This document shows, one piece after another, positions 27,002-45,581 of a stretch of DNA of 52,981 bases. The stretch's first letter is position 1. Every line of letters begins with the position of its first letter. This stretch comes from an uncultured Pseudomonadales bacterium (GTDB lineage: Bacteria; Pseudomonadota; Gammaproteobacteria; Pseudomonadales; Azotimanducaceae): positions 1 to 52,981 of the forward strand of contig CAJJAX010000017.1 of the NCBI GenBank assembly GCA_905182155.1. The letters are read 5' to 3'. The position numbers were made by a program, and so were the translations under genes. The notes under the pieces are model-generated. The model was not told the origin of the DNA. It did not search any database and was given only the letters and a program-made list of their open reading frames with translations.

Positions 27002-28168
27002 CTATCGCAAGGACGCTCCTAAGAGTTCGCGGGCAATCACGTGGCGCTGAACTTCACTCGGGCCTTCACCAATCCGGCGGATCCGCATTTCTCGATACCA
27101 GCGCTCAAAGGGCAGGTCTTTGGCAACGCCGAGGCCGCCGAACATCTGCATACAGCGGTCCACGACCCGCCCGCCGGCTTCGGTTGCGACCAGTTTTGCC
27201 ATGGCGGCTTCTTTACGATACGGCAAGCCTTGGCTCGCCTTGCTGGCCGCTTCAAGGGTGATCCAGAGTGATTGTTTGATATCGATATCATTGTCGACCA
27301 GCATCCACTGAATGGCTTGGCGTGAGGCCAGAGGCGCGCCAAAGGTTTCCCGTTGGGGCACATAGTCGAGGGCCATTTCTTGCGCTTTGATGGCGACCCC
27401 AATGCAGCCGGCCGCGTAGGGAATGCGTTGGCGGGTCAATCGGTCATTGGCAATGGCAAAGCCCTTATTCACCTCGCCCAAGATGTTGCTGTGGGGCACG
27501 ACCATGTCCTCAAACTGCAGCTCGGTCGCGTAGTGCGCCGAGCGAAGCGTGTGCACGATACGCCTGACATGAAACCCAGGGGTGTCGGTATCAACGATAA
27601 AACAGGTGACGCCATTGCGACCCTTGTCTTGGCTGGTCCGTGCGAAAACAAGTCCAAAATCGGCGCGGTCAGCGCCGCTGATCCACAGTTTAGCGCCGTT
27701 GATGATCCAGTCATCACCAACCCGAACGGCTTTGGTTTCGATGGCTCTGGCGGGGTCTGATCCGCCGGAGGGTTCAGACAGACCAAAAAACCCGCGTTTT
27801 TCGCCCCGGAGTGTTGGGTAAAGGTAGGCTTCTTTTTGGGCGTCGGTCGCTTCGAATAATTGCGCGAGGCCCGCGCCACCAAAGGCGCCATAACAAGGCG
27901 CATACAGCCCCGCTCGATGTTGCGCCATCTCGACAGCGATAAGGGTTCGGGTAATCAGGTCAATATCGGGCCCACCATATTCTGGCGGAATATCAAGCCC
28001 ATACAGCCCCATCGATTTTGTGATGCCGATCAATCGCGCTTGGTCCTCGGGTTCGAGCGAATCGGCATCCGGGTCGATGTTGATTTCCAGCGGTAGAATT
28101 TCTTCTCGAACAAAACGCCGCACCATGGCGATAATGAGGGTTTGTTCGTCGGTGAGTTCAAGGTTCAT
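27002..28168 (-). CDS. Acyl-CoA dehydrogenase
   Basis: A full-length 388-residue enzyme with LYGLDIPPEYGGPDIDL, LSEPSGGSDPA, WISGADRADFGLVFART and the C-terminal RIGEGPSEVQRHVIARELL carrying the catalytic Glu (EGPSE). It oxidises an acyl-CoA ester with FAD and passes electrons to electron-transfer flavoprotein. Its ATG overlaps the stop of the upstream small gene (ATGA), and that gene overlaps the thiamine-pyrophosphate enzyme gene, so all three are translationally coupled. The substrate may be a 2-hydroxyacyl- or branched-chain acyl-CoA, but this is inference from the neighbour only. Confidence 0.9.
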   Translation of the reverse strand: MNLELTDEQTLIIAMVRRFVREEILPLEINIDPDADSLEPEDQARLIGITKSMGLYGLDIPPEYGGPDIDLITRTLIAVEMAQHRAGLYAPCYGAFGGAGLAQLFEATDAQKEAYLYPTLRGEKRGFFGLSEPSGGSDPARAIETKAVRVGDDWIINGAKLWISGADRADFGLVFARTSQDKGRNGVTCFIVDTDTPGFHVRRIVHTLRSAHYATELQFEDMVVPHSNILGEVNKGFAIANDRLTRQRIPYAAGCIGVAIKAQEMALDYVPQRETFGAPLASRQAIQWMLVDNDIDIKQSLWITLEAASKASQGLPYRKEAAMAKLVATEAGGRVVDRCMQMFGGLGVAKDLPFERWYREMRIRRIGEGPSEVQRHVIARELLGASLR

Positions 28169-28482
28169 AAGATGGGACTCAGTCGGCCTAGGGGAATGTT
28201 GGGGTTCTCGGGTGGCAGTTCACCGTGATAGGCCTTGTGCAGCATTAGCAGTTCGCGGTATCGACTGAGATAGCTGGCGGTAATCTCAATCCGAATCTGG
28301 CAGGCGCGAGGCATCCTCGAAAACGCCTTTTGAATTTCACCCCGTAAACCGAAGGCTGAGTTGCCGCCGGCATAACCGATATACAGGCTCTCGCCTTCAC
28401 GACCGCCTATTTCGAAAACACCGAGATGCCCATGAATGTTCGGCAAGGCGGTTTTGATGTCTTGCCAAGGCTTATGTCGCAT
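28165..28482 (-). CDS. Small unknown protein, coupled between TPP enzyme and acyl-CoA dehydrogenase
   Basis: I choose the ATG at 28482 (105 residues). It overlaps the end of the TPP enzyme by 11 bases (ATGCGACATAA) and ends overlapping the dehydrogenase start. The sequence contains GHLGVFEIGGREGESLYIGYAGG and FGLRGEIQKAF, which resembles the start of a GIY-YIG-like fold (GVFEIG, then LYIGYAGG, then an Arg-containing helix). I have no strong match and do not assign a nuclease function. The tight coupling suggests it works with its neighbours in acyl-CoA metabolism. Confidence 0.6.
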   Translation of the reverse strand: MRHKPWQDIKTALPNIHGHLGVFEIGGREGESLYIGYAGGNSAFGLRGEIQKAFSRMPRACQIRIEITASYLSRYRELLMLHKAYHGELPPENPNIPLGRLSPIL

Positions 28483-30154
28483 GGGGTGCTTCTGGCCGCA
28501 GATTGGCATCCACTTCGTAGTCTTGTTTCGGCATGATGGAAATCTCCATCGGGTCAAAATGCGCCATATCGATATCAATCAGATAGGGGCCGCTCGTGGC
28601 CATCGCCTCGGTCAGCGCGCCTTCGAAGGCGTCAAGACTCTGAACCCGTTGGCCCGGCACGCCCATGCTGCGCGCCATGGTGGCAAAGGCAACCTTGCCG
28701 AGGTCCGTCTCATTGATTCGACCAAACCGCGTCTCTTGCAGCCAACGTAAGACGCCGTAACCCGAATCGTTGAAGACGCAGATGATGAGGGGCACTTGGT
28801 ATTGTGCGGCGGTGGCAAGTTCGGTGGCATGAAACATAAAACCGCCATCGCCATGGACCACGAGGGTTTGCTTGCCAGAGCCAATCGCCGCCCCCAGCGC
28901 CATTGGGAACCCGGGGCCGATGGCGCCAGAGGTTGGGTTGATGGAGGTGCGGGGGTGCAGAATTGGAAACTGCTGGTTCCCCCAGTTATAGGCTGAAATG
29001 GTTTGGTCTCGTACAAACACGCCATCATCCGGCAGTTTCGCCCGAATGAGGTCCATGATGATTGGGAAGTCTTGGCCTAGACGCCGGCGCATGGAGGCCC
29101 GCAAGCCATCCCGGGCTTCCCAAAGGGTTTGGTTGAACTGATCGTCGTTGACGTCCACGTCCGGTAGGGCGTCGATCAAGGCTTGCAGGGCCGCTTTTGC
29201 ATCGGCCAAAACGGGAAATGCCGCCGCATGGGTTCGCCCAATCATCGGCCCATCGATATCAATTTGAATCAGATCGCCGGGTGGCGTTTGCGCTTGAAAC
29301 TGGCCATCCACCCCAACCGCGAAGCGGGTTCCGATCGCGAGGGTCACGTCGGCCTCATGAAGGCTTTTATACAGGCCTGCGCTATTGTAGTAGTTGCCAA
29401 TGCTGCGCGGGTCGGTCTCCGCAATCGCGCCGCGACCATCAACAGTGGTGATCACGGGGCAGTCTAGTTTGGTGGCCAAAGCCTGAAGTTCATCACTTGC
29501 ACCCGCGGCAATCACGCCGCCACCGGCGATAATGATCCGCCGTTTTGAGCGGGTAATTCGGTCAGCAGCGGCGCGAATTTGTTGTGGGTCAGGCGGGTAG
29601 TGGGTGCCCGTTGGATAAGACAGTTGCACCGGGTTGGCCGCGGCATATTGCAGATCAATCGGAACTTCAATGGCGCCTGGCGCCGGCCTGCCGGTAAATA
29701 AGTCAGCGATCAGCAGCTGCAAGCAAGGGCCCAGTTGCTCGATATGGCGCGGACTCTCGACGCGGCGACAGACTGTTTTCAGCATCGCCACTTGGTTCTC
29801 CGCTTCATGCACATAACCCACGCCCCGGCCATAAAAAGCCGTCTCTGCTTGGCCGGTAATGACCAAAACCCGAGACGAGCCGTATTGCGCCTCATAGAGG
29901 CCCGTGACTGTGTTCGAGGTGCCTGGGCCGGTTGAGGCAATCATGACGCCCAGTTTTCCGGTCGCGCGCGCGTAACCGTCGGCGGCATGGGTGCCAGCTT
30001 GCTCATGCCGAACGTTAATGATCTGGGTTTTCCCCAAGCGATTGATCGCATCAAAGATGGGCATGTTGTGTATGCTGACAATGCCAAAGACGTGTTCGAC
30101 GCCCAATTGGACCAAGCTTTCAGCGATTAAATCAGCACCGGTAAAGTCGTTCAC
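28472..30154 (-). CDS. Thiamine-pyrophosphate enzyme, acetolactate-synthase/2-hydroxyacyl-CoA-lyase type
   Basis: The 560-residue protein has the three domains of the family: N-terminal pyrimidine-binding domain with the catalytic Glu in NVRHEQAGTHAADGYARATG (about residue 51), central domain (RRIIIAGGGVIAAGAS) and C-terminal ThDP-pyrophosphate domain with HGDGGFMFHATELATAAQY (the GDG motif, with Asn in VFNDSGYG). Members make acetolactate, cleave 2-hydroxyacyl-CoA or decarboxylate oxalyl-CoA. The start is GTG at 30154 with AGGAG upstream. It heads a coupled three-gene operon with an acyl-CoA dehydrogenase, which favours a role in acyl-CoA or keto-acid catabolism over amino-acid synthesis; no regulatory subunit gene (IlvH) is nearby. 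Confidence 0.85.
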   Translation of the reverse strand: MNDFTGADLIAESLVQLGVEHVFGIVSIHNMPIFDAINRLGKTQIINVRHEQAGTHAADGYARATGKLGVMIASTGPGTSNTVTGLYEAQYGSSRVLVITGQAETAFYGRGVGYVHEAENQVAMLKTVCRRVESPRHIEQLGPCLQLLIADLFTGRPAPGAIEVPIDLQYAAANPVQLSYPTGTHYPPDPQQIRAAADRITRSKRRIIIAGGGVIAAGASDELQALATKLDCPVITTVDGRGAIAETDPRSIGNYYNSAGLYKSLHEADVTLAIGTRFAVGVDGQFQAQTPPGDLIQIDIDGPMIGRTHAAAFPVLADAKAALQALIDALPDVDVNDDQFNQTLWEARDGLRASMRRRLGQDFPIIMDLIRAKLPDDGVFVRDQTISAYNWGNQQFPILHPRTSINPTSGAIGPGFPMALGAAIGSGKQTLVVHGDGGFMFHATELATAAQYQVPLIICVFNDSGYGVLRWLQETRFGRINETDLGKVAFATMARSMGVPGQRVQSLDAFEGALTEAMATSGPYLIDIDMAHFDPMEISIMPKQDYEVDANLRPEAPHAT

Positions 30155-30574
30155 AGCAGAGCTCCTGGTTTGTGAAGATAATTTTATTGGTTACAGCCAG
30201 GGCGAGATCGCGCGTAAAAACTAAGAGGCGATGGCTTATAGCGCTTTGATCGGGCCGTGGTGGGCTGGACAGACCACGATCCGGTGCGGCCTTTGGTTGG
30301 CGGCCGCTATTGAACGGAAACAATTTGACCGCCGAAAACCAAACTAGATGTTGTCCTGCGGGTTTTGAGCGCTTGTCGCGAGTTGAAAACCCATGGGCCC
30401 ATGGTAGGGCGCCCGGGGATGGGGCTGGCCCAGCAGGCCAAGGGGGTGAAGCAGAAGGGGGTTTTTAAAAGCGTCATCTTTTTTTTATCGGCCGAGTTGC
30501 TCTGACCTTCTCACCCTGGGCTGCGTTCGTCAATTCGGGGTTTCGGCCCTTTCTATGACGGTTTGAGCAAGGCC
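30155..30574. other. Intergenic region without a supported gene
   Basis: These 420 bases separate two minus-strand genes. They contain one short T run (8 T at about 30480-30487) and no conserved frame. The promoter of the TPP-enzyme operon should be near 30160-30250, but no convincing -35/-10 pair was identified. Confidence 0.4.
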
Positions 30575-32008
30575 TTATCGTTTGAGCAGTGCCCCGAGTA
30601 ATTTTGGTGATTGCACGAAGCCGATAGCCGCCGCGACCCGAAGGGCGGTATTCATCGGGTAGGGCAAGGTGTGGATGCCGCCATGGACCCGAATGCAGCC
30701 GGGCTGGGGCGCTGTTGGATGCAGCCAGTCATGCACGGCTAGCAGTCCGTTCAGCGTCTGCGATTGGACCGGGGTGAAGGTTTGCACACCAAGTGCGGCC
30801 GAGCCGCCAAAAGCCGCATCGAAGACTGGATGGGCGATGGAGCGAGTTTGGGTAATCGGCGCCGTGTTGGCAGACACCCGCAGCGGCGCCCGTTGATCGC
30901 TCGGAAATTGGCCCTGTTGAACCCAAGTCTCGGCCGTCATGAGTTTGGCCAGATACTGGGCCGCTTGATAGCTTGCACCTTGCGTTCCCACGATCGTTCG
31001 GCTCGCCCCAAGGTCGCCCTGTCGTACAACGCCGCCACCGCTGCCGAGCAAGCCCAGCTTGTCGAGCGCCGCTTCCCAGCCTGGCCGGCTGTCTTTTCGG
31101 TGGGTCAGTGCAAGCAAATCAACGGAATCTAAGGGCGTCGCCGTCGTCGGTGACAAGAGCATCGTGGCGCTCTGAATGAGCGCGCTGGGCAAGGCGTTAA
31201 CGATGGCATTCATGGCGGCGGCGAGCCGCATTTCTCGCGCTTGGCCCGGGGCGTAAGCGTAAAGGCAAAGATCAAGCGGTTGGCCCTCGGCAAAGGCCAA
31301 GATGGTGGCAAGGATCTCGGCGGGTTGGGTCAGTAAATCAGCGCCGTCGACAGGAAACTGTACGCCACCGCCCCGAAACAGGGAGGTCGCAAGCACGGTT
31401 GGCGGCGCAAGATCTAACCAAAGAATCTCAGCGCCCGCTGCGCTGAACTGTGCGGTGGGCGCCATCTCTGCGCTGGCGCCAAAGATCACAACCTTGCGCT
31501 CGGATAAGTCGAGCTGATGCGGTTCACCCAAATGCTGCGCCAGCCAGTCCAGGGCCACCTTGGCATTCTGAGAGACGATGTTGGCTGATAACAGCGCTTG
31601 GCCAAGGCAGGCAAGGTCCGCCCAGTCTTGTTTGAGGAAATGCAGGTTGGGTTGCCAGCCTGGGTCACAATTTGGTGGCAGACGCTCGAGCAGTAGTGGT
31701 TTCGCGGGACGCGTTAGGTGTTCCTGCAGGGGGTGGGTGCCTTCATCGTTTGCGTAAACCAAGTGCGCCTGAAACGTTTCAGCCAGTAGCCGAGCAATGT
31801 CTGCCCGGGCCGGATGGTTGATTCTTGCGGCTTCAAAACGAGGCAGTGTCGTCACGTAGCGGCGTTTAAAATCCGCCGCGCTCTTGGGAAAATCAATCTC
31901 AGCAAAAGCCGAAGGATGCGCCTGAACGGCGGTATCTAGGCAGCGGTATAGGATTTCGCTTGCCGAGCTACCGGGTCGAAGTTGGATTCCGTATTCTGCA
32001 GTTTTCAT
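30575..32008 (-). CDS. Unknown 477-residue protein with a Rossmann-like segment
   Basis: I do not recognise this family. The mid-part has a nucleotide-binding look: DLSERKVVIFGASAEMAPTA (about residues 170-188) resembles the beta1-loop-helix start of an NAD(P)-binding Rossmann fold, and AGAEILWLDLAPP could be the second beta strand. No obvious catalytic triad, transmembrane segment or signal peptide is seen. The frame is long, uses common codons and has a clear start near 32008, so it is a real gene. The C-terminal region has many small residues and several Pro, which may be a second domain. Neighbours give no clear hint (TPP enzyme, GST). Confidence 0.6.
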   Translation of the reverse strand: MKTAEYGIQLRPGSSASEILYRCLDTAVQAHPSAFAEIDFPKSAADFKRRYVTTLPRFEAARINHPARADIARLLAETFQAHLVYANDEGTHPLQEHLTRPAKPLLLERLPPNCDPGWQPNLHFLKQDWADLACLGQALLSANIVSQNAKVALDWLAQHLGEPHQLDLSERKVVIFGASAEMAPTAQFSAAGAEILWLDLAPPTVLATSLFRGGGVQFPVDGADLLTQPAEILATILAFAEGQPLDLCLYAYAPGQAREMRLAAAMNAIVNALPSALIQSATMLLSPTTATPLDSVDLLALTHRKDSRPGWEAALDKLGLLGSGGGVVRQGDLGASRTIVGTQGASYQAAQYLAKLMTAETWVQQGQFPSDQRAPLRVSANTAPITQTRSIAHPVFDAAFGGSAALGVQTFTPVQSQTLNGLLAVHDWLHPTAPQPGCIRVHGGIHTLPYPMNTALRVAAAIGFVQSPKLLGALLKR

Positions 32009-32332
32009 GGTTCGTGTTGTGCCTGATTGGGTGAGCGATTTGGGTTCCGGGTTTGGGCCTTCGTCTTTTGAGTTCAGTCATCATCAAGGCTAAGGCTGGC
32101 ATGTTACCTTAGTCAGGGTGTTATGCGGGTTATTGGCGTCGGATGACCCTGCAAGCGCCTCGGATTTGCGCAATCGATTTTTTGACCGGCTACTGGGGGA
32201 TCGGGCTTAGCACATCTTGCCGAGTCCTAAGATAATCGGTTCCGCTAAAAACCAGTGATGGCGCTGATCGACGCGGCTTTCAGGTCGATTGCCGTGCGCT
32301 CAGGATGCTGGCTCGCAACGGTCAAGGTTTTC
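32009..32332. other. Intergenic region without a supported gene
   Basis: No frame, repeat array or clear hairpin was seen in these 324 bases between two minus-strand genes. Confidence 0.4.
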
Positions 32333-32965
32333 TTAAGCACTGCCTGACGCGGGCGCCTGGCGTTGCGCGACTTGGGCGCGCTGGAACCCCGATCGCGCTT
32401 TAAGTCGTTCGAGGTAGGAAAGGGTCGGCGCTTTATACGCTTCTGAAATACCGAGGTTCTCGCCTAAATACAGGGCGTAGCCGCAAGCAATATCGGCGAT
32501 GGTAAAACGATCAGCAACCAAAAATTCGTGATCGGTGACCCGGGCATTCAGCATTCGCAGCCGCGACAGGTACCACTTCTTATAATCTTCACCGACGAGC
32601 GCTTTGGTTTCATCGGGCTCGAGTTGGGTGTACCGCAGGTAGAGCGTTTGCGGAAAGGTCAGCGTTGCATCGCTGTGGTACAGCCAATTCAGGTAAGCGC
32701 CGTATTCAGGCGCCTCCGGCCTGACCCCAAAAAGATATTGCTGATGGGCTTCAACGAGGTAATGACAAATCCCCGATGACTCGGTCATATGATGATCGCC
32801 ATCCACAAAGTAAGGCACCGTGCCAAGCGGGTTCACCGCGAGATAGCCATCGTGGAGAAATCTGGGCGGAAATGGCATGACTTCCAACTCGTAAGGCAGG
32901 CCCATTTCTTCCAAGGCCCAAAGCGCCCTGAGTGATCTTGCATCATGACAGTGCCAAAGTTTCAT
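32333..32965 (-). CDS. Glutathione S-transferase family protein
   Basis: This 210-residue protein has the usual GST layout: thioredoxin-like domain (MKLWHCHDARSLRALWALEE with Ser11, NPLGTVPYFVDG with the cis-Pro, TESSGICHYLVE as glutathione-binding motif) and helical C-terminal domain ending around residue 200. The start at 32965 has AGGAG upstream. It is unrelated in detail to the GST at 21299-22078. The likely role is glutathione conjugation in detoxification or catabolism; no substrate can be inferred. It is transcribed alone on the minus strand. Confidence 0.88.
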   Translation of the reverse strand: MKLWHCHDARSLRALWALEEMGLPYELEVMPFPPRFLHDGYLAVNPLGTVPYFVDGDHHMTESSGICHYLVEAHQQYLFGVRPEAPEYGAYLNWLYHSDATLTFPQTLYLRYTQLEPDETKALVGEDYKKWYLSRLRMLNARVTDHEFLVADRFTIADIACGYALYLGENLGISEAYKAPTLSYLERLKARSGFQRAQVAQRQAPASGSA

Positions 32966-33232
32966 ATAATGCTCCTAGCAGCCTGGATAGATTGTGTTCT
33001 TGGGCGGGGTGCTTCGGCAAACCAATCTAAAAATGCCGCCAGCATGGTTTGAGTTGATACCGGTAAGTTTGACATCCAATGTCCTTATAACGGCCGCGAC
33101 CTAAACGCCGTTAAAACCCCTGCTGACGCCAATTAAATTCAGGCTCTTTAAGGTCGCTGCCAGTATCTCGGCGATGTCGCGCTGTCTAGGACTTTGGCGT
33201 CGCCTCGTATGATGATGCCGCTAAGCAGCCCA

Positions 33233-33535
33233 CTAATCAGGCTTGCGAGTGCCTTCAAAGGTCGCCTGACCAAACGCGCCTAATTTAGCAGTGCCCGAAA
33301 TGCTATCGCCCGAGATCACAGCTTGGCACTCAATGGTCATGGGCATTGGCTGTGTCATCGCAATGTTAAACGTCAAAGTATCGCCGTCGACCGTGCCGTC
33401 GCTAAATGCCTGTTCACCCTGAGGGCCTGCCATCGAGCCAGACAGCACGCCATTGTCATCCGTCAGGGACAACGTTGCATCTTGCGCGCCCATCGGGGAT
33501 TTCATTGTGACCGCCCATTTACCGGTTGCTGACAT
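33233..33535 (-). CDS. Small beta-rich protein of unknown function
   Basis: The 100-residue product has alternating polar/hydrophobic strands (GKWAVTMKSPMGAQDATLSL, VDGDTLTFNIAM, TIECQAVISGDSISGTAKLG), suggesting a small beta-barrel of lipocalin-like topology, and no signal peptide. The start at 33535 has a strong AAAGGAG. No family is recalled. Its small size and clear RBS support it as a real gene. It lies between a GST and a sulfotransferase gene without visible coupling. Confidence 0.7.
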   Translation of the reverse strand: MSATGKWAVTMKSPMGAQDATLSLTDDNGVLSGSMAGPQGEQAFSDGTVDGDTLTFNIAMTQPMPMTIECQAVISGDSISGTAKLGAFGQATFEGTRKPD

Positions 33536-33684
33536 AGTGATCTCCTTTTAGTTGTCTTGTTTGCTGAGCATACCCCAGCGACTCGGGCGCCAACACCCTT
33601 GATTGGCCAAGAACAAATGCCGAATCCGTCGCGCTTCCTGCATCACCTTAAGCTCAGCAAGGCTTAACAAATATCGGGCGGGCT

Positions 33685-34323
33685 CTATTGTTTTTCTGAG
33701 GCCTTGTGCCAGATGCTTTTAAAATCCTCGGTTGAGTTGACCCGGGGATAGGGCTCGCTGGGGAGGTCCTTGCCTAAAAAGTTACACAAAGCTGGCCAGC
33801 CACTGGCTGCTTCAAAAACCAACAATTTGGCAGGGTCCACGGCTTTTATCACAGCTTCATTGTGCCGGTTAAAAACATCAATCACATGTTGCCGATCGTC
33901 CATGCGGCTGTCAAAAACTCGGTTCCAAATGATCTCCATCGCCCATTCGCCGGCGGCATGATTAGCGGGTTCATCACTGTCAAAGCGCGCCTTGGATGAG
34001 GCATAAATGGTGTTCATCACGCTGTCGTACCACTTCTCAGGATCTCGAAGCGACAAGATGATTTTAGCGTCAGGGTAGGCCGCGCTGAGTTCCTGCCAGA
34101 GATTGCAACTGGGCCAGTCGACCGTTGCGGTATAGCCTGAAAACAAGGCTGGCCAGTCGACCGCTTCACCCAGGTGAGCCGCCTTCCAGAGCGCTTGATG
34201 GTCCGGATGATGTCGCAGTTCCATCATGTGATAGCACTGGTTATAGCCCAGCATTTCGAGCCCATACTTGAGCGAGAGCGTGCCGGTTCTGCCAAATCCG
34301 GCACCGATGACTTCAAGTGACAT
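33685..34323 (-). CDS. Sulfotransferase-family protein
   Basis: From the ATG at 34323 (AAGGA upstream; the ATG 78 bases further out is less good) the product has 212 residues. It begins with the P-loop-like motif GAGFGRTGTLSLKYGLE that binds the 5'-phosphosulfate of PAPS, and has LSLRDPEKWYDSVMNTIY, the 3'-phosphate motif with Arg-Asp-Pro and Ser. Substrates of such small sulfotransferases include lipids, steroids and carbohydrates; the true substrate here is unknown. No operon partner. The short tandem array at 34534 lies upstream of it. Confidence 0.86.
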   Translation of the reverse strand: MSLEVIGAGFGRTGTLSLKYGLEMLGYNQCYHMMELRHHPDHQALWKAAHLGEAVDWPALFSGYTATVDWPSCNLWQELSAAYPDAKIILSLRDPEKWYDSVMNTIYASSKARFDSDEPANHAAGEWAMEIIWNRVFDSRMDDRQHVIDVFNRHNEAVIKAVDPAKLLVFEAASGWPALCNFLGKDLPSEPYPRVNSTEDFKSIWHKASEKQ

Positions 34324-34699
34324 GTGGTTTCCTTGCATTACTTTAAGGTTAGGGCAATGTGATTGCGCGCTCACTACACCATAAAAACCACAGCCGCTCA
34401 ATCAACCCGTGCCGCTTGGCAGATGGGTTGCCGGCGCGGGTAAATCGCATGTGTGATCCGCGCGCACGCGTCTGAGCCGTCAGCACTGCGTTGAATCGCG
34501 CGCTGTCGCCCTATTTCTTTGGGCTAGGTCGTTCAACCGATGCTTTGCAACCGATATTTTTGCAACCGATGTTATTGCAACCGATGTTATTGCATCGGGG
34601 GCCCGTTCAAACGAGCCTAAACCGTCTGTCCGCCCGACCTCACGCCAAACCCAGCTGAGCGAGCTTAAAGTGGGTTGGGGCGTCGCCTTGTTGGCCCCT
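34324..34699. other. Intergenic region with a 15-bp array
   Basis: The 376 bases between the sulfotransferase start and the selenoprotein-candidate stop hold no supported gene. They contain the CAACCGAT-type array at 34534-34592. Confidence 0.5.
34534..34592. repeat. 14-15-bp tandem repeat CAACCGATGTTATTG type (4 copies)
   Basis: Four copies: 34534-34547, 34548-34562, 34563-34577 and 34578-34592. The last two are identical and the first two slightly diverged. A partial CATCGG follows. Confidence 0.92.
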
Positions 34700-35807
34700 T
34701 CAGGCCTTCCAGGGCTGATAATAATTTGCCGGGCCTTCTGCGCGAATATCGGTTAGCCAATCGCCCTGGTAGGGCCACTGCTCGGGATGATCTGGGTGGG
34801 GACCTTGCCAAAATCGCTCGAACGGGCCTGCGGCTGCCACGGTTTCGAGCGACCAGGCCTGCCGGCGATAGGTCCAACTGTCCGGCACGAGCCGGTGGGC
34901 GGCTTGAAAATGTTCAACCGCAATGGCCTTCTGGTCGTGTACAACGGCTTCACAAGCGAGCTCAAAATGAGCATGGCCCAGGGCGCGTTCAGCCGATTGG
35001 GGGCCGGCCCGGGCAGTCACCGCCTCCGGCGAGAGCGCATGGGGGCTGTCAGCGCCCCGATGAATCCAATCCTGTAAGGCGGCATGGTAGCGTGCCGGGT
35101 CACTTTCGATGTGGGCAGCTTCCCCCATGATCGCCATCATGCGGGGCGGCCGCTGGCAGATCGATGTTCGGCCCGCTGTCTTCAGACGCGTCTTTGGGTG
35201 GCGCGGGTGCTGCTTCAGCAGGACGCACGATATTGCCTTGCTCATCAATCCAGATACTGCTGGGTATATTGACCACACCAAATAAGTCCGCCATAACATG
35301 ATGCTGGTCAATCAATGAAGGGTGTTGCGGCTGCGCTGCTTCAATAAAATTACGACAACCATCAGCGCCTAACGTATCTAGACCAACGGTGACGAGTTCA
35401 AAACCTTGAGTGTGTAGTTCTTGTCTGAGTGCTTGCCACACGGGCAAATCGCCAGAGCATCCTCAGTAGGGTGCCCAGGCATAAACGAGTACTTTCTTAC
35501 CCTTCAAACTGGACAGCTTGAATTCATTGCCATCGATATCTGGCAGTTGTAGTTCAGGTGCTTTCGCCGAACTCAGCGCACGCCCACCAATTGAATCCGG
35601 ACCCATAGCCCAAAGCTTCGCTTGCGGTTCATGCGCTAAGGGTAAATTCATGGCGTCGGCCAGCGCGATGGCGGGTAAGGCGTCAGTGTCCGTCGGGAAA
35701 GGCAATGGGATGCAGGTCTCTGCCTTGCAAGCGCCTTCTGGCTTGAAGGTCCATCCTGTTGCCGCCTCGAAGGCGCGTTTCTCGATTGTTTGGCCGTAGA
35801 CAATCAT
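34700..35807 (-). CDS. Thioredoxin/ResA-like selenoprotein candidate, WAPY-U-GC motif (with one frameshift downstream)
   Basis: The gene reads from ATG 35807 to TGA 34700. Residues 1-114 end with SLKGKKVLVYAWAPY, then an in-frame TGA (35463-35465), then GCSGDLPVWQALRQELHTQG and VTVGLDTLGADGCRNFIEAA. TGA sits exactly where a thioredoxin-fold ResA/TlpA-type protein has its redox-active Cys (WAxxCxxC region), and Cys follows two residues later, so it reads WAxxU-G-C. I recall a ResA-like WAxxUGC selenoprotein family with this pattern. A bacterial-SECIS-like hairpin lies at 35424-35456. The C-terminal part (HFQAAHRLVPDSWTYRRQAW) continues in another frame after a single-base frameshift near 35142-35146. 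Selenocysteine would replace the Cys and raise reactivity. The selA/selB/selC genes are not in the window. Confidence 0.8.
35424..35456 (-). promoter_or_regulatory. Candidate bacterial SECIS element
   Basis: In the mRNA, 14 bases after the TGA, UUUGCC and GGCAAG (six pairs, one U-G) close an apical loop CGUGU (35438-35442) with G at its second position. A lower helix pairs UCUG with CAGA across a 4x4 internal loop. Bacterial SECIS elements are such hairpins, with a G in the first positions of the apical loop, located about 16-37 bases past the UGA. Confidence 0.65.
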
Positions 35808-36007
35808 ATGGTCCGCTCTTTTTTTATGCTATTTCACGTAAATGTAGAGAAAATTTTAAAAAAAGAAATGCCGAAAGCGCCGCAGCACTTTACCCCTTTG
35901 CCGGTTGTTTTCATCGCGATCGCGGCGCTGGGGAAGGTCAAAATAGCGCTTATTCCTAAGAGTGAGTGTGCTACTGTCTTGGATCAGAACCAAGCAGGAG
36001 ATTGTAG

Positions 36008-36532
36008 ATGAAGGTGCTACGTTGGCTGGCCATTACGGTGCTCGCCCTCATTGTGATGATTGCGTCGGTGTTGGTTGCAATGCGGTTCTCGGATGGTCCT
36101 TACAGCATGCTGTCAGGTGGCGCTTTCTCATCGGGGGAACCTCAGCGCGGTTTGTCGGACTGGTCATTTTTAGAAGGTCGAGACGTCATTGAATTTCAAA
36201 CTCTGGCGCCTGAAACCTCCCGCACCATTTGGTTGGTGGTGGTTGATCAAAAACTCTATTTCGTGAGCGGTTACATGAATACCGCAGTGGGTAAAATCTG
36301 GAAGCAGTGGCCGAGCCATGTTACTGAGAATAATGCCATTTTGATTCGAGTGGATGGTGCCATTTATCCACAACGGCTCAAGCGGTTGTGGGATGAACCG
36401 ATGGTGCCGGCAGTGATGCGAAAATTTTCGAAGAAATATGGCCTCGGTTCTGAAGACGCCAGTGATGACGCGATTTTGACCATGGTGGGTGAGGGAGATG
36501 TTTGGCTGTTTGAGGTTGTGGCGGCTGAGTAA
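36008..36532 (+). CDS. Unknown membrane-anchored protein
   Basis: The 174-residue protein starts with one membrane segment (about residues 5-25, WLAITVLALIVMIASVLVAM) and continues with a globular part: DWSFLEGRDVIEFQTLAPE, SRTIWLVVVDQKLYFVSGYM and AILIRVDGAIYPQRLKRLWD. The combination of IEFQT, SRTIW and (V/I)DGxIY is reminiscent of split-barrel nitroreductase/PNPOx-like proteins but I cannot place it. The start has a good AGGAG. It is transcribed divergently from the selenoprotein candidate and precedes the MFS gene by 108 bases on the same strand. Confidence 0.62.
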   Translation: MKVLRWLAITVLALIVMIASVLVAMRFSDGPYSMLSGGAFSSGEPQRGLSDWSFLEGRDVIEFQTLAPETSRTIWLVVVDQKLYFVSGYMNTAVGKIWKQWPSHVTENNAILIRVDGAIYPQRLKRLWDEPMVPAVMRKFSKKYGLGSEDASDDAILTMVGEGDVWLFEVVAAE

Positions 36533-36640
36533 GTCATTCAGTTTTAATTACGCGGGTGCCGCGCTAAGCGGTCGCTAAGCGAAAGGCCTGCAACATTGTT
36601 GGCGTTGTTGTGTTCAATGCGCGGTAAAGGAAATCCATCG

Positions 36641-37966
36641 ATGAATCCAATTGAAAGTGAAACCGAAGCACTCTCGGATACGGGTTACAGCAAAGGCTAT
36701 CTGCGGTATGCGCTGGGCTTGTTCTTACTGATTTATATCGTCAATTTTGTTGATCGGCAGATCTTTTCAATTCTGATTGAGCCGATCAAAGAAGAGATCG
36801 ATTTAAGCGATACCCAATTGGGTCTGCTCGGCGGCATTGCGTTCGCGTTGTTTTATACCATCGCCGGCATACCGATCGCCCGATGGGCCGATGTGGGTGT
36901 GCGAAAAAATATTGTCGCCCTCGCGATTTTGATTTGGAGCGGCATGACCATGATGACCAGCACCGCCAAATCTTTTGGCGGTCTGCTGCTGGCGCGGGTC
37001 GGGGTTGGTATTGGGGAAGCGGGTTGTTCACCGCCAATCCATTCTATGATTTCTGATTATTTTCCGGAAAACAAACGGGCGACCGCCCTGGCCATCTACG
37101 CCATGGGCATCCCCATTGGTGGCGCGATTGGTACCTTAGCGGGGGGCTGGATCGGCGAATATTATGGCTGGCGAATGGCCTTTTTGTTGGTGGGCTGCCC
37201 CGGCATTATCTTGTCGGTCGTGGTTTACTTGACGATTCGCGAGCCCTTGCGCGGCCAACAGCGGCCCGTTGCGCAGCAAAAAGAACCCGAAGTGCTGATT
37301 CCGCTGAAAGAGACCATCAGCTTTATGTGGCGCTTGCGCTCCTTCCGGCATTTGTCCTTCGCCGGCTCCCTGCATGCGTTTGTGGGTTACGGGGTGGCGT
37401 TGTTTATGCCGTCTTTTTTTATGCGCGTGCATGGCTACGGCTTGGCAGAGACCTCAACGTATCTGTTTTTAATCGGATTGACCGGCGTCATTGGGACCTT
37501 CCTGGGGGGCTACTTGGGCGATCGGTTTGGGCAGAAAGATAAACGCTGGTACATGCTCTTTCCGGGTGTTGCGACCTTTCTGTCGGTGCCCTTTGCGGTC
37601 TTTTTTTATACCACCCAAGACCCGGTTATGGCGCTTATTCTGGCGGTGCCGGGGGCAATTCTTGGGCCGATGTATCTCGGCCCAACCTTTGGGATGACCC
37701 AGACGTTAGTGCCGCCGCAGATGCGCGCCACCGCCTCGGCGATTCTGCTGTTTGTGCTGAATCTGATTGGCTTGGGTTTGGGGCCGGTGTTTGCCGGCAT
37801 GCTGAGTGATTACTTTTCAGCAGACTACGGGGTTGATTCGATTCGTTATTCGCTGCTGATTCTTGCGGTTGGCGGCAACATTTGGTCTGCGCTTCATTAT
37901 TACCTGGCATCCAAGACTATTCGAGAAGATATGCTGCTGAAAGACGCTTACCTGCCGGCGCCTTAG
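36641..37966 (+). CDS. MFS transporter
   Basis: Starting at ATG 36641 (AAAGGAAAT upstream; the in-frame ATG at 36596 lacks one), the protein has 441 residues and twelve hydrophobic segments. MFS signature strings are visible: VNFVDRQIFSILIEPIKEEI in helix 1, GIPIARWADVGVRKNI in loop 2-3 (the D-R/K-rich loop) and GGYLGDRFGQKDKRWY in loop 8-9. It belongs to the group of MFS proteins (spinster-like) found in gammaproteobacterial catabolic regions; the cargo is unknown. A GC-rich hairpin follows the stop at 38061-38091. Confidence 0.92.
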   Translation: MNPIESETEALSDTGYSKGYLRYALGLFLLIYIVNFVDRQIFSILIEPIKEEIDLSDTQLGLLGGIAFALFYTIAGIPIARWADVGVRKNIVALAILIWSGMTMMTSTAKSFGGLLLARVGVGIGEAGCSPPIHSMISDYFPENKRATALAIYAMGIPIGGAIGTLAGGWIGEYYGWRMAFLLVGCPGIILSVVVYLTIREPLRGQQRPVAQQKEPEVLIPLKETISFMWRLRSFRHLSFAGSLHAFVGYGVALFMPSFFMRVHGYGLAETSTYLFLIGLTGVIGTFLGGYLGDRFGQKDKRWYMLFPGVATFLSVPFAVFFYTTQDPVMALILAVPGAILGPMYLGPTFGMTQTLVPPQMRATASAILLFVLNLIGLGLGPVFAGMLSDYFSADYGVDSIRYSLLILAVGGNIWSALHYYLASKTIREDMLLKDAYLPAP

Positions 37967-38392
37967 CCCGCGCGGATGATCTTGCTAAGGCGCGGCACGC
38001 GCCGTTGAATTCAATGGCCTCAGCCCTTAGGGCAAGGGGATGCACGCTTTGGTTCCGAAGCCCTGGGCCCGGCCGCTGGCTGGGCCCAGGGTTATCCAAA
38101 CTGGCCTAGCGCCGCTTTTGGATCTTTTTTGGCCATGCCGGTTTTATCCAGCGTTCTATTTAAAGCGCCAGTCTAGAAATAATGCTTTGCCGCATTCTTG
38201 TGGGGTCTGCTTGGACCCTGCAGGGGATAAAAATCTTTGTTGGACATTTATCCTGCAGTTTGGTAATTCTAGGTAGAGGGGAAGCAACTATAATCCCGTT
38301 GCCGTTAATCGCGGGTTGGGATAACAAACTTTATGGGCATTTGCACTGTAAGACTTTCTCATTGTGATGCAAAAATAGCTGGAGCGTGACGA
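37967..38392. other. Intergenic region upstream of the second TonB receptor
   Basis: The 426 bases hold no supported gene. A GC-rich inverted repeat is at 38061-38091. I found no riboswitch that I can defend. Confidence 0.45.
38061..38091 (+). terminator. GC-rich hairpin after the MFS gene, possible terminator
   Basis: CCCTGGGCCC (38061-38070) and GGGCCCAGGG (38082-38091) are perfect complements separated by an 11-base loop. It is not followed by a T run, so it is either a Rho-dependent pause or another structural element. Confidence 0.35.
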
Positions 38393-40819
38393 ATGACAGG
38401 AATAAAATGGGTCGGGGTTGGTGTATTGGGTTTGAGCGGCCTGTTTGGGCTAACGTCGGTGCAAGCCGAAGACGGCGTGAATCGAGTTTTTGAGGAAGTT
38501 GTGGTGACCGCGCGTAAGCGCGAAGAGACCGCCCAGTCCGTGCCGATTCCGATTACGGCGTTAGGTGCGGAGCAAATGCAAACGCGGAACATGACCGAAA
38601 TTCGCGATATTGAACGCTTGAGCCCGAATACAGATATTGATTACAGCGCCGTCAATGGCACGTCGCTCCAGGTTTTTATGCGGGGTATTGGTCAGACCAA
38701 CTGGTCTTCCACCCAAGATCCAAAAATCGGTATCTATGTCGATGGTGTTTATTTGAGTCGGCCCCAAGGCGGGCTCCTCGATTTTAATGACGTCTCGCGC
38801 GTGGAGGTGCTGCGCGGTCCCCAAGGCACGTTATTTGGCCGGAACACAACGGCCGGGCTGATCCAGATCATCAACAATCGGCCTGAACAGGAATTTGAGG
38901 CCAAGGCGCACGTTGGGGTGGGCAATGAGGGTCAGCGCACTGGCGGTTTTGTCGTGAATGCGCCGATATCAGAAAATTTAGCGGCCCGGTTTTCCTACAG
39001 CATGAACCAGGCCGATGGCATCATCACCAATGCTTTTACCGGTATGGATCGCGGTAACGAAGACTCTATGTCTTATCGTGCGGCCCTGCGCTGGGAAGAT
39101 GATGCGTTGGACGCACAGTTAACCTTTGATCATTTCGAGGCCGATGAGCGCGCGCCACTCGGCTCGTGTCGGTTTACAGGCCCAGCGGATCCGTTCGCTG
39201 CATTAGGCTTGGGTGGATTGCCCTCCGTTGCGGTCTTGTTCGGCGTTTATGGCGATATGAAGGCCAACTGTGAGAACACCAGCAGCTCGGTTTCGATGGA
39301 CACAACCAATAATGAAAATGCCATCAGCGATGTGGACGCCGTGTCGCTTCGCTTGAGTTACGATTTTGGTGGTTTTCAGATTTCGTCTATCACTGCGCAA
39401 CGTAATATTGAAAACTTCAATGGCACTTGGGGTTGGGTTATGGGCAATGGGCCAACAGTCAATTTCTTGGAAATTCTAAACAACGTCAGTGAAAATGAGA
39501 TTTTGTCGCAAGAACTCCGAATGACCGGCGCGACCGATCGGCTGGATTGGGTGGTTGGCGCTTATTGGTTTGAAGAATCGTCGCAAGAGGGCTTAGATGT
39601 GCCGCTCTTCCGCGGGGTTGGCGCGCCAACGCCTGAGCAATGGCCATTGTTTTATGCGCCGAATGGGGCGGGCGGTACCTTGGGCGGCGCCGCACTGGGC
39701 GCGCAGCTCTATGGCAGCCGTTATCAAGCCTACGACGTGGTGAATGCCAATCAGGCTTTCTTTGCAGAGATGACCTATGCGTTGACCGATCAGTTAGACC
39801 TGACCCTAGGCGCGCGTTACACCAAGGATGATCGAGATTTTACGCGGATCCAAACGCTCTATGGTGGCGCTTTTGATCCCTTTTACTTTTGCCCGGGCAT
39901 GCCAACCGTTGAGCTCGCACCCGGTGTGCCTGCAGCCGCCAGCGATCGCTGCTTCCAGACGGTTTCTTACAGCAAGACCACCCCAAGGGCCATCCTGAGC
40001 TACCAGGTGTCATCCGACATGATGGTCTACGGCAGCTACAGCATGGGTTATTCCAGCGGCGGCTTTAATCAAGATGTCAGGATGCGCGCCTACTTGCCGG
40101 AAGTTTCCGATAACCTTGAGTTCGGCGTTAAATCCGAACTGCTCAATGGCAAGCTACGACTCAACGCCACGGTGTTTAATAATACCTACAAGAACCAACA
40201 GTTGACCGTGGGCCGAATTGTGAATGGTCAGCCGACCGCGGACTTGATCAATGCCCAAGAAGCGACGCTCAACGGGTTTGAACTCGAGCTGCTGGGGCAG
40301 TTGACGGATCAATTGTCCGTGACCGTATCGGCTGGGTACTTAACAGGTGATTACGATGTGTTTACGATTGACGATAATGTCACGGTGACCGCAGAGGATG
40401 GTTCTGTCGGCAGTATCATTCAGGAGCGAGACCTATCGGGTACCGAGTTCGGTAGCGGCAATAATTTGTCCTTTGATGTGGGGCTGCTGCACATTTTGGC
40501 GCTCAATGGCGGCGGTGAGGTTGTATCCTCCATCGGCGCGACCTTTAAGGACGACCGGTTCTATACCCTGGTTAATACGCCTTCGTCTTTAGCGCCAAGC
40601 TATTGGTTATTGGACGGCCGGGTGACCTGGTTTATGCCGAACGAAAAAACCAGTGTGTCGCTCTGGGGCAGTAATCTGACGGACGAAGAATATGTTACAA
40701 CCATGTTGAGCCAATCGGGTGACCGAGAGATTGGTGGCATTGACGCGTCGCTTGGCATGACGGCTGATTATTGGGGAGAACCGAGGCGCTTTGGTTTAGA
40801 GCTAAAGCATCAGTTTTAA
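38393..40819 (+). CDS. TonB-dependent outer-membrane receptor
   Basis: The 808-residue protein has a signal peptide (MTGIKWVGVGVLGLSGLFGL, then SVQAEDG), a TonB-box-like EEVVVTARKREETAQSVPIP, and a plug (FMRGIGQTNWSSTQDPKIGI, VEVLRGPQGTLFGRNTTAGL) followed by a beta-barrel that ends in LGMTADYWGEPRRFGLELKH. The RGPQGTLFGRN motif is the usual plug signature. The ligand is not identifiable from sequence; receptors of this subclass take up siderophores, vitamins, or hydrophobic or aromatic compounds. A GGAG RBS precedes the ATG. It has its own terminator at 40838-40865. Confidence 0.93.
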   Translation: MTGIKWVGVGVLGLSGLFGLTSVQAEDGVNRVFEEVVVTARKREETAQSVPIPITALGAEQMQTRNMTEIRDIERLSPNTDIDYSAVNGTSLQVFMRGIGQTNWSSTQDPKIGIYVDGVYLSRPQGGLLDFNDVSRVEVLRGPQGTLFGRNTTAGLIQIINNRPEQEFEAKAHVGVGNEGQRTGGFVVNAPISENLAARFSYSMNQADGIITNAFTGMDRGNEDSMSYRAALRWEDDALDAQLTFDHFEADERAPLGSCRFTGPADPFAALGLGGLPSVAVLFGVYGDMKANCENTSSSVSMDTTNNENAISDVDAVSLRLSYDFGGFQISSITAQRNIENFNGTWGWVMGNGPTVNFLEILNNVSENEILSQELRMTGATDRLDWVVGAYWFEESSQEGLDVPLFRGVGAPTPEQWPLFYAPNGAGGTLGGAALGAQLYGSRYQAYDVVNANQAFFAEMTYALTDQLDLTLGARYTKDDRDFTRIQTLYGGAFDPFYFCPGMPTVELAPGVPAAASDRCFQTVSYSKTTPRAILSYQVSSDMMVYGSYSMGYSSGGFNQDVRMRAYLPEVSDNLEFGVKSELLNGKLRLNATVFNNTYKNQQLTVGRIVNGQPTADLINAQEATLNGFELELLGQLTDQLSVTVSAGYLTGDYDVFTIDDNVTVTAEDGSVGSIIQERDLSGTEFGSGNNLSFDVGLLHILALNGGGEVVSSIGATFKDDRFYTLVNTPSSLAPSYWLLDGRVTWFMPNEKTSVSLWGSNLTDEEYVTTMLSQSGDREIGGIDASLGMTADYWGEPRRFGLELKHQF

Positions 40820-40837
40820 AGGCCTCATCTGTTAGGG

Positions 40838-40865
40838 AAAAAACGGGCGGTTGCCCGTTTTTTTT
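40838..40865 (+). terminator. Rho-independent terminator of the second TonB receptor gene
   Basis: AAAAACGGGC and GCCCGTTTTT form a ten-pair stem with a GGTT loop (40849-40852), followed by further T residues. Confidence 0.93.
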
Positions 40866-40980
40866 GGGTTTGATTCGGTGCCGCCTGGCGTGGGTCAGCG
40901 GCTGCGGTGGGATCGCAGGCAGTTGTCTTTTATTGGTGAAACACCGTGATCCTGTTGCAATATGCGTGATTCGACTGCGG

Positions 40981-41019
40981 CTTTTGGTCTAGGCTTTTGG
41001 TCTAGGCTTTTGGCCGAGG
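40981..41019. repeat. 13-bp tandem repeat CTTTTGGTCTAGG (3 copies)
   Basis: Two identical copies (40981-40993, 40994-41006) and one diverged copy (CTTTTGGCCGAGG, 41007-41019). Confidence 0.93.
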
Positions 41020-41195
41020 CAGATGGCTAGGTCGCCCGTCTCGGCCAGGATGCAGAGCAGATCGAAACGATCGGTAAAAGGTCGCGAACACGAGCCTCTT
41101 GCGCTGAGGATGACCCGGATCAAAGCGTTAAGGTTACCTTTTTACTTTGGGCGCCTTGGGCACGATTGCATCGTCAGGACTGTGTACGGTGCCCC

Positions 41196-41321
41196 GACAG
41201 TGAAGACAGTGAAGACAGTGAAGACAGTGCAGACAGTGCAGACAGTGCAGACAGTGCAGACAGTAAAGGCGGTGAAGGCGGTAAAGGCAGAGAAGGCAGA
41301 AAAGGCGGTAAAGGCAGTGAT
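41196..41321. repeat. 9-bp tandem array GACAGTGAA/GACAGTGCA type (about 14 copies)
   Basis: Three GACAGTGAA, four GACAGTGCA and a run of variants (GACAGTAAA, GGCGGTGAA, GGCGGTAAA, GGCAGAGAA, and others) form about 14 units of 9 bases. The unit drifts from GACAG to GGCGG along the array. It ends 88 bases before the ATG of the next gene. Confidence 0.93.
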
Positions 41322-41408
41322 GAGGCGAATCAAGGTTAGCAAAGGCTTCCAATCGACGGCAGTCTTCGAGAAACTCTGTGTGTTGTCTCAAACAGGAATC
41401 AGGATGTT

Positions 41409-42371
41409 ATGAATACGAGCGCCAGCGCCTACCGGCCGTTTCAATGCGGCTTGCTTGCAAGCATTCTCTTTTTTGTGGGTTATACCGCGTTTGGCTGGTC
41501 AGGTTGGGGCACCCCTGCGGCCGTCGAGCAAGCTGTCGGCGAAGTCTCCCGATGGTGCGAGCGCGTGCAGCCTGGGTTGTTTCATGAGCCGGTGAACGCG
41601 CTCAGTAACCTGGGCTTTATGGTGGCTGGGCTCTGGATGCTGTGGCGTTTAGGCGGCGATGTGCGCGCGGGCCGGCAGGGGCTCATGTTTGGTCACAGTC
41701 CGGTGGCGCTGCTGTATGCGGGCGCGGCGATTTGGCTTGGGCCGGGGTCTTTACTGATGCATGGCACCCACACGGGTTGGGGCGGGTGGGCTGATAATCT
41801 CAGCATGGTGATGTATATCTTGATCCCCTGGTTGATCAATGTGGGCGCGATGGGGCGTTGGACCAGCATCCGATTGCTGACGATCTATACCGCGCTTGTG
41901 ATTATTTATGGGATCGGCCGGGCGGTTTATGGTTGGGGCTTGGGCATTAATCTTGATTTTTTTGGCTTGTCCATCGCCTTTTGGGTGATCTCGGAGGTGC
42001 TGTATCGCTTTCACTCCCAGCACTTCCGCTGGATATCCGGCTTGGTGGGGTTTGCCGTGGCCGGTATTTTTGGGATCACGCCGCTTGAGATGTGGGCCGA
42101 GCCCGCTCGGTATTGGTGGGTGGTGCTGTTTTGGGTGCCAGGCCTATTGGCTCCGAGTGCGCCAGTGGGTCGTCGCGATTATTGGCCCTGGTTCTTCCTC
42201 GGAATGGGCAGTTACCTGCTCGCGTTTGCCATTTGGCAAACGGGTAAGCCCGCGCATCCGTGGTGTAATCCAGATTCGTTGATTCAAGCGCATGGCATTT
42301 GGCACCTCTTATCGGCCGCAGCTACCGCCTGCTTTTTTGTGTTTCTGCGAACCGAGCGCAAGCTCACCTGA
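41409..42371 (+). CDS. Ceramidase-family (CREST-type) membrane protein
   Basis: The 320-residue protein has about seven to eight hydrophobic segments. Ceramidase/CREST superfamily signatures are visible: WCERVQPGLFHEPVNALSNL (Glu and Asn near the N-terminus), LLMHGTHTGWGGWADNLSMV (His and Asp) and HPWCNPDSLIQAHGIWHLLS (two His near the C-terminus). These acidic and His positions form the Zn site in alkaline ceramidases. It may hydrolyse ceramide-like amides or act as an unrelated membrane hydrolase; it is probably not a true ceramidase unless the host has sphingolipids. It follows the two arrays at 40981 and 41196. Confidence 0.83.
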   Translation: MNTSASAYRPFQCGLLASILFFVGYTAFGWSGWGTPAAVEQAVGEVSRWCERVQPGLFHEPVNALSNLGFMVAGLWMLWRLGGDVRAGRQGLMFGHSPVALLYAGAAIWLGPGSLLMHGTHTGWGGWADNLSMVMYILIPWLINVGAMGRWTSIRLLTIYTALVIIYGIGRAVYGWGLGINLDFFGLSIAFWVISEVLYRFHSQHFRWISGLVGFAVAGIFGITPLEMWAEPARYWWVVLFWVPGLLAPSAPVGRRDYWPWFFLGMGSYLLAFAIWQTGKPAHPWCNPDSLIQAHGIWHLLSAAATACFFVFLRTERKLT

Positions 42372-42766
42372 GTGGTTGGGGTTTTGTTGAACGCCAGTTG
42401 ATTGCTCTGCTAGCGCGGTCACAGAGCCGTCAGGGGGCATTCAGCAAGCGGCACGTGATTCCAAAAGTTAGGGTAAGCCGGCAAACGCAAGTGGCCGAGG
42501 GTCCCACTGCCGGCGTCCCGCTGTCAGGTTGAACCGGCTGCTGGTTGAGAGGGTGCCGCGGCACGCACAATCTTGATGTGGCAGCCTAACAAGGCTTTGC
42601 TTTGGGATATTAGGCTTTTAGATTGGCGCGCCAATGCGGCCCGACCTCGGTGAGCGTGCTTTTAAATTGGCTCGGATTGGCGGGTTAATAAAGGGCGCAA
42701 AGTGGTTGCCCTTAGGTTTTACCCCAGCGACGTCATTTAAAATTGTCGGTTTGTCTCGGCGGGGTT
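42372..42766. other. Convergent intergenic region with a palindrome
   Basis: No gene is supported in these 395 bases between two convergent genes. A 14-base perfect palindrome lies at 42622-42635. Confidence 0.5.
42622..42635. repeat. Perfect 14-bp palindrome ATTGGCGCGCCAAT
   Basis: The sequence is its own reverse complement. It lies between convergent genes, about 130 bases past the hslO stop, so an operator role there is not obvious. Confidence 0.6.
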
Positions 42767-43636
42767 TTAGTGCGCCGGTCGGTCGCCCCGCGCTTCAGCG
42801 GCAATGGCCGCGCCATCCATTTCGTATTGGGCGCCGCAGAACTCGCAATTCAAGGTCAGTTCGGTTTGTTCGGCCAGTAAGGCTTGCAACTCGGCTTCTC
42901 CCAAAGCGATCAGCGCGTTTGCCATTCGCTCGGGGCTGCAGGTGCAGGCAAATCGGAGGGCTTTGGGTGGAAACAGGGTCACCTCATCCTCAACGAAGAG
43001 CCGCTTTAACATGGCGGCTTCCGAAAGTTCAATCTGCTCGGCCTGGGTAAGCGTCGCCGCAAGAAGACTAAAGTGTTGCCATTGATTTACGCGGTTTGTG
43101 TCGTCTTTTTCTAACTGCGCCGGCAACTGCTGCAGAAGGAATCCGGTCGCGGTCTCGCCGTCCGACTGCAGCATGATTTGTGTCCCGAGTTGGTCCGATT
43201 GCCCAAAGTAGAACTCGAGGCATTGGGCCAGACTGGCGGCGGTTAGCGGCACTAAGCTCTGATATCGCTCGCCGTGCTCGGGCTCAATAGTGACCACCAA
43301 GGTGCCGGATCCCAGCAGCGCTTCAAAGTCGGGGGCATCGCGGTCCGTTAAGTCCTGGAAGCGGGCAACGCAGCGTAGGCTGCGCTCGCTGCTGGCTTCT
43401 GCGGCCAGCAGGGTGATTTTTTCAAGCCCTTTAACCTGCAACAGCAGGCGGCCTTTGAACTTAATGGTTTCAGACAAAAGCGCAGCGGCTGCAAGGAATT
43501 CGCCGAGCAAAATTCGGATTGGCCGAGGATAATCCGTCGCGCTCAGACTGTCGGCATAGGTTTGATTGAGCTGCAGCATGTAACCCCGGATATCGGCATT
43601 CGCCATTAGAAATCGACTGGAAGAATCAGATTGCAT
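42767..43636 (-). CDS. hslO: Hsp33 redox-regulated chaperone
   Basis: The 289-residue protein matches Hsp33: N-terminal IRGYMLQLNQTYADSL-like start, and the C-terminal zinc/redox switch made of two Cys pairs, C-x-C in RFACTCSPERM and C-x-x-C in LNCEFCGAQY. Under oxidative stress the four Cys lose zinc, form disulfides and the chaperone opens to hold unfolded proteins in the cytoplasm. AGGAAA precedes the ATG at 43636. It is transcribed alone on the minus strand, convergent with the ceramidase-family gene. Confidence 0.94.
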   Translation of the reverse strand: MQSDSSSRFLMANADIRGYMLQLNQTYADSLSATDYPRPIRILLGEFLAAAALLSETIKFKGRLLLQVKGLEKITLLAAEASSERSLRCVARFQDLTDRDAPDFEALLGSGTLVVTIEPEHGERYQSLVPLTAASLAQCLEFYFGQSDQLGTQIMLQSDGETATGFLLQQLPAQLEKDDTNRVNQWQHFSLLAATLTQAEQIELSEAAMLKRLFVEDEVTLFPPKALRFACTCSPERMANALIALGEAELQALLAEQTELTLNCEFCGAQYEMDGAAIAAEARGDRPAH

Positions 43637-44046
43637 CGCGTTGGTTTCCTGTTTGGCGCGTTAAAAGAGGGTCGCCACTGTCCGGGTTAGAGGGGGCGGG
43701 CAAAGCTTGCAAGCCAAGCGATGCCCGACGGCAGATTATAAGGTAATTAAGCGTCAGCGTATTTTGAATTTTGGGGCCTGGTCAGGGAACGTTCTTGGTT
43801 TTGGCGGCGCGCCCGCGTTGTGAGGCAATCTGTACTCACGGCTCGGGTGTGATTTGAAAGGCCCATGGGGGCTTTAGAATCTAGCCCGGGGTGATTGATT
43901 TGCCGCGCCCTCGGGTACAGGGCACAGGGGCCAGGGCGCGGTGGTGCGAGCCGTGTTCAAGGGCTATAGGTTCACCAATAGCCATCGCTTTGGCCCGGCA
44001 CCATCACCGGCCTTGCTCATCCCTGAAAACTTCTAGTCATCCGGTC
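43637..44046. other. Intergenic region with an inverted repeat
   Basis: No gene is supported. The 410 bases between two minus-strand genes should hold the hslO promoter. A 9-bp inverted repeat is at 43903-43941. Confidence 0.45.
43903..43941. repeat. 9-bp inverted repeat
   Basis: CCGCGCCCT (43903-43911) and AGGGCGCGG (43933-43941) are perfect complements with a 21-base loop. It could be a stem-loop or binding site; there is no T tract on either side. Confidence 0.45.
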
Positions 44047-45468: not shown

Positions 45469-45581
45469 GTACTGCTCGTACTTTGTTTGGACGCATCATA
45501 CGTGCTTTTGAGTTACCTGGGTATGCAGGCGCTATTTGCGTCCGGGAGGTCATCGCGTCAGAATGCGGCGAACAAAATTGA

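Follow-up and report, generated by a model that had tools for sequence, protein, structure and literature searches.

Selenoproteins that combine a peroxiredoxin- or TlpA-like domain with a UGC motif are already in print. The 2008 GOS survey, in its accessible part, lists 46 sequences as 'Prx-like (UGC-containing)' (pfam00578) among the previously described families (PMC2398784), and the available tables of later reviews name them 'UGC-containing Prx-like protein' (PMC9312934) and 'UGC-containing TlpA disulfide reductase family protein' (PMC13188914). One Prx-like UXC sequence is given in the accessible part of PMC1088965, and the accessible text of PMC9402790 names no such family. Our literature search found no paper on WAxxUGC or on a ResA-like selenoprotein by those names; the U itself already stands in the name of an NCBIfam family, NF041054 (WAxxUGC_long), 'ResA-like WAxxUGC motif-containing protein'. 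The published proteins share a pfam00578 or cd02966 domain and the UGC motif with the family treated here, and are equated with it by domain and motif. They differ from it in the abundance of Cys homologues, for which the GOS table gives 855 against 46 selenoproteins (PMC2398784), whereas the best 80 of 532 loci found in the present work all carry TGA.

The gene described below lies in a contig of an uncultured bacterium of the Azotimanducaceae (Pseudomonadales), all 52,981 nucleotides of which were analysed and are called the window. It is a well-supported addition to the known selenoprotein family. The reading that we hold to be very probable is that it encodes an NF041054 selenoprotein, with UGA read as selenocysteine by means of SelA, SelB, SelD, tRNA-Sec and a hairpin, and that the window copy itself is chimeric. 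An earlier note on this DNA had mentioned neither the mosaic nature of the copy nor the prior publication of such selenoproteins.

Layout of the gene

The in-frame TGA that the earlier note had placed between two open frames is indeed there, and both frames have the same phase, with 114 codons before it and 120 after it (Table 1). Each half matches an adjoining part of NF041054 with an E-value of about 1e-39, and the same-phase frames around the TGA are therefore more than chance. When translated through the TGA, the piece matches positions 1-209 of the 354 of the family model with 306.2 bits (cut-off 300), and has U before GC in the WAxxUGC motif; the ResA-like family that the earlier note named by this motif exists. 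Pfam identifies AhpC-TSA (54.4 bits) and Redoxin in the same piece.

Table 1. Positions of the gene and its parts in the window
Feature	Position	Strand	Remarks
Upstream open frame, 114 aa, ATG at 35807	35466..35807	minus	N-terminal domain with ACKAETCIP (CX4C) and start of thioredoxin-like domain; NF041054 positions 1-115, E 1.2e-39
In-frame TGA	35465-35463	minus	Within WAPY-TGA-GCSGDLPVW (WAPY-TGA-GC = 35477-35457); read as selenocysteine, U115
Downstream open frame, 120 codons + stop (TGA 35102-35100)	35100..35462	minus	NF041054 positions 122-210, E 4e-39; family match ends at about 35184
Predicted bacterial SECIS hairpin	35432..35448	minus	6-bp stem; 5-nt loop CGUGU beginning 20 nt past UGA
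Tract identical to OM182-clade MAG FRAM18_bin281, 506 bases, TGA included	35150..35655	minus	Exact run against L066 (G425:C5)
Family C-terminal part, NF041054 positions 204-353, other frame	34706..35194	minus	ORF 34703-35311: positions 203-353, E 3e-41

The span 34700-35807, proposed earlier for the gene, does contain the whole length of the family; this length is spread over two frames, and the second break had not been mentioned. The break lies near 35150-35190, where the last ~150 residues of the family are shifted to another frame, and five further TGAs are met if the first frame is read beyond 35100. The window copy differs from NF041054 in that the 354 positions of the family are not contained in one frame and in that its middle part is foreign, and in a search of the whole genome it scores 298, under the cut-off. 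Neither a membrane anchor nor a signal peptide was seen by eye in MIVYGQTIEKRAF; no tRNA genes were found in the window, and Rfam gave no match at the gathering threshold over its whole length.

A mosaic copy

On both sides of the 506-base tract the window gene follows the copies of its own genus, mostly with 70-90% identity, and in a sliding comparison the highest identity lies with the own genus at either end and with L066 in between. The next species (L067) shares no exact run longer than 47 bases with the window, and the tract is the sole long exact run among the matches of its source genome (G425) examined for window positions 28000-46000. The frame break coincides with the downstream edge of the tract.

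Such a pattern may be produced by recombination in the cell or by a consensus error in the assembly, and the two were compared in a region of 19.5 kb that contains tuf and rpo genes (L212, G000:C10:4500-24000). There, 13 exact runs of at least 40 bases link the genome of the window (G000) to G425, eight of them being 100-371 bases long, whereas G003, a genome of the same genus as the window, shares with G425 a single run of 59 bases, and the longest run between G000 and G003 is 87. In G000, rpoB is in five pieces, rpoC in three and fusA in two, and neither tuf copy is intact (names taken from the G003 proteins); in G425, rpoB, rpoC and fusA each occupy a single frame, and splits occur in one tuf copy and in two smaller genes. 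Because a living cell could scarcely survive with all of these essential genes disrupted, the breaks are best explained by a consensus error between species that occur together.

The other origin, a very recent gene conversion or transfer between genera, in which the core of the gene, with redox site and SECIS, was exchanged in register for DNA of an OM182-clade neighbour, with a broken frame as the result, we regard as improbable. It would suit the position of the tract, in register within an orthologous locus whose flanks belong to the own genus, and the upstream junction, where by eye only about 9 bases are shared, fewer than the k-mers that assemblers usually employ. Against it speak the break at the very edge of the tract and the state of rpoB, rpoC, fusA and both tuf genes of the same MAG, which have broken frames together with similar exact runs to G425 and which would hardly be viable in combination. 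The window copy is thus most likely a chimeric consensus of two species that arose in assembly and not in biology, as far as comparison of the sequences can tell: its middle 506 bases would come from the OM182-clade species, and the consensus error would have broken the frame at their downstream edge. Because this MAG has cross-species consensus in conserved genes, oddities of single genes in it need to be checked against relatives first.

Conservation of the TGA and distribution of the family

A search of genome contigs found 532 stretches encoding a relative, of which the best 80 were retained and the other 452 left out. With the codon at the site left free, TGA was found in 80/80 of these loci, all from named genomes, and the frame continues to the C-terminus of the family in 78, the other two ending at the edge of a contig. 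One of the two patterns used to scan for relatives had C at the TGA site, which, if anything, biases the search toward Cys homologues. A Cys stands at the site in one relative (L051, WASWCGC, genome G018), which scores 305.7 against NF041054. The comparison of homologues that the earlier note had called for gives TGA or Cys at this position. The copies of the same genus (L025-L030 and L032) have TGA in their own sequence, so the inference of selenocysteine is independent of the foreign tract; one of them, the intact L030, reaches 412.5 bits against NF041054.

By their titles, the records of the fetched relatives include Gamma-, Beta- and Alphaproteobacteria, the Acidobacteria (Holophagales, Thermoanaerobaculia) and the Acidimicrobiales, and odd titles of MAG records (Klebsiella, Bifidobacterium) were given no weight. 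In a manual count among the matches listed, at least 22 of 58 genomes, the own genome included, have TGA-bearing members; NF041054 matches above the cut-off occur in 13 of 58 relatives, all near full length. Across the class, three of 369 genomes (the own genome being one) contain the family at E 1e-30, which indicates a patchy distribution. When the open reading frames of the window and the 80 loci were clustered in search of a conserved neighbourhood, the largest cluster other than the gene itself and frames overlapping it comprised 15 loci and was, by eye, a glutathione S-transferase; with only 15 loci, it does not lead us to propose a partner gene.

The SECIS-like hairpin

According to the accessible part of a 2026 review, bacterial SECIS elements have a loop of 3-9 nt with a G in its first two positions, a stem of 4-16 bp, a distance of 16-37 nt from the UGA and a minimum free energy of at most -7.5 (PMC13188914). 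The hairpin predicted in the window lies within these limits as given there: counted from the T of TGA, positions 18-23 pair with 29-34, the stem starts 14 nt past the UGA, and the fold over 54 nt has -11.4 kcal/mol, the 21-nt core alone having -5.8. For five copies of the same genus (L025, L027-L030), a structure other than the hairpin has the lowest energy over the 54 nt, and the 21-nt core folds into the hairpin with -5.0 kcal/mol.

Codon use and covariation were studied in 79 distinct genes picked by their TGA pattern, so that TGA in 79/79 of them is given by construction and is no evidence. Codons U+6 to U+10, in the region of the hairpin, are nearly fixed and their synonymous sites nearly frozen. 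The Val codon of the hairpin is GTG in 66/66, against a codon sharing of 0.54 in the next-best Val column; the Pro codon is CCC in 62/66 (sharing 0.88, next-best Pro column 0.51); and the Leu codon is only ever CTG (62) or TTG (17), in 79/79. No other such column tested matches this uniformity. Stem pair 19-33, formed by position 1 of the Leu codon and position 3 of the Gln/Arg codon, covaries, with CG in 52, TA in 11 and TG in three of 66 distinct sequences and no mismatch, and none of 5000 shuffles, which ignore relatedness, reached the observed Watson-Crick count. The frozen synonymous codons and the covarying stem constitute evidence at the level of RNA for selenocysteine insertion across the family.

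Selenocysteine genes of the host and decoding of the TGA

The genome of the window is 72.7% complete and is distributed over 49 contigs. The search for sel genes proposed in the earlier note detected in it a tRNA-Sec of 93 nt with anticodon TCA (ARAGORN), which Rfam misses at its gathering threshold (45.8 bits, threshold 47), together with selA (561.9 bits, cut-off 267.9) and selD (256.8 bits, cut-off 125); selB is represented by its first 71 positions (111 bits), at one end of the contig that carries selA. The selD gene (L048, G000:C43:30953-31858) sits in an open frame of 775 codons, a length compatible with the Ndh-SelD fusions that the accessible part of PMC2398784 describes. Among the matches listed, with the own genome included and relatedness ignored, selA occurs in 20 of the 22 genomes with TGA-bearing members versus 15 of the 36 others (Fisher p 0.0002). 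Two genomes of the same genus that have TGA-bearing members, G003 and G007, contain neither selA nor selB above the cut-off, and both possess tRNA-Sec(UCA); in G425, the source of the tract, no selA, no selB above the cut-off and no tRNA-Sec (best 35.4 bits) were found. These gaps probably reflect incomplete assemblies.

Homologues and the sel genes of the genome together support the earlier reading of the TGA, which in the window gene is almost certainly a codon for selenocysteine, to the extent that sequence can decide. A true stop, which would make the two frames a pseudogene in decay or a pair of short proteins, we consider very improbable: the second break in the window copy and an in-frame TAG with a scrambled stretch in a paralogue of the same genome (L050, in C24) would fit such decay, and the retention of TGA in 80/80 fetched relatives (with most of them reading on to the family C-terminus), the frozen codons behind it and the presence of Sec genes in the genome argue against it. 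That the organism reads TGA throughout its genome as another residue, for example Trp, is a possibility with practically no weight, since several copies in relatives terminate with TGA after the family C-terminus, so that TGA is still a stop there, and the site aligns with Cys in L051. The UGA would accordingly be decoded as selenocysteine during translation by SelA, SelB, SelD and tRNA-Sec of the host, with the hairpin behind it presumably directing the insertion.

Fold and proposed function

In an alignment of 44 relatives, including five distant ones of 27-33% identity, C27, C32, U/C115 and C117 are invariant (U being written as C). In the AF2 model of an intact copy, L078 (pLDDT 94.0, pTM 0.91), the N-terminal part carries the CX4C motif flanked by strands, the ResA-like domain has U115 immediately before helix 116-134, and the C-terminal part is helical. 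The thioredoxin-like domain extends over positions ~81-200; its best PDB matches, by sequence as well as by fold, are ResA/TlpA proteins, the best match of the model being ResA 2f9s (E 4.9e-10, TMt 0.78), which places it among thioredoxin-like folds. The family differs from ResA/TlpA in the active site, where UGC, with Ser or Ala at U+3 in the WAPY copies, takes the place of CxxC, and in its additional N-terminal CX4C part and helical C-terminal part.

These features make a function as thiol-disulfide oxidoreductase most likely. The selenolate of U115, which sits where the first long helix of the thioredoxin-like domain begins, would attack a disulfide or a peroxide, and C117 of the UGC motif or the N-terminal pair C27/C32 may act as the resolving group.

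A paralogous set

A second, paralogous set of genes with WASWUGC or WSSWUGC comprises L033, L057-L064 and the own-genome paralogue with the TAG, L050 (G000:C24:41132-42037). The TGA-bearing paralogues tested (L033, L057 and L064) score 236.7-283.5 bits, below the NF041054 cut-off of 300, and none of the 8 distinct sequences of the WSSW type forms the two outer pairs of the stem. Some members of the set have, by eye, a start resembling a signal peptide, and the set may deserve a family model of its own.
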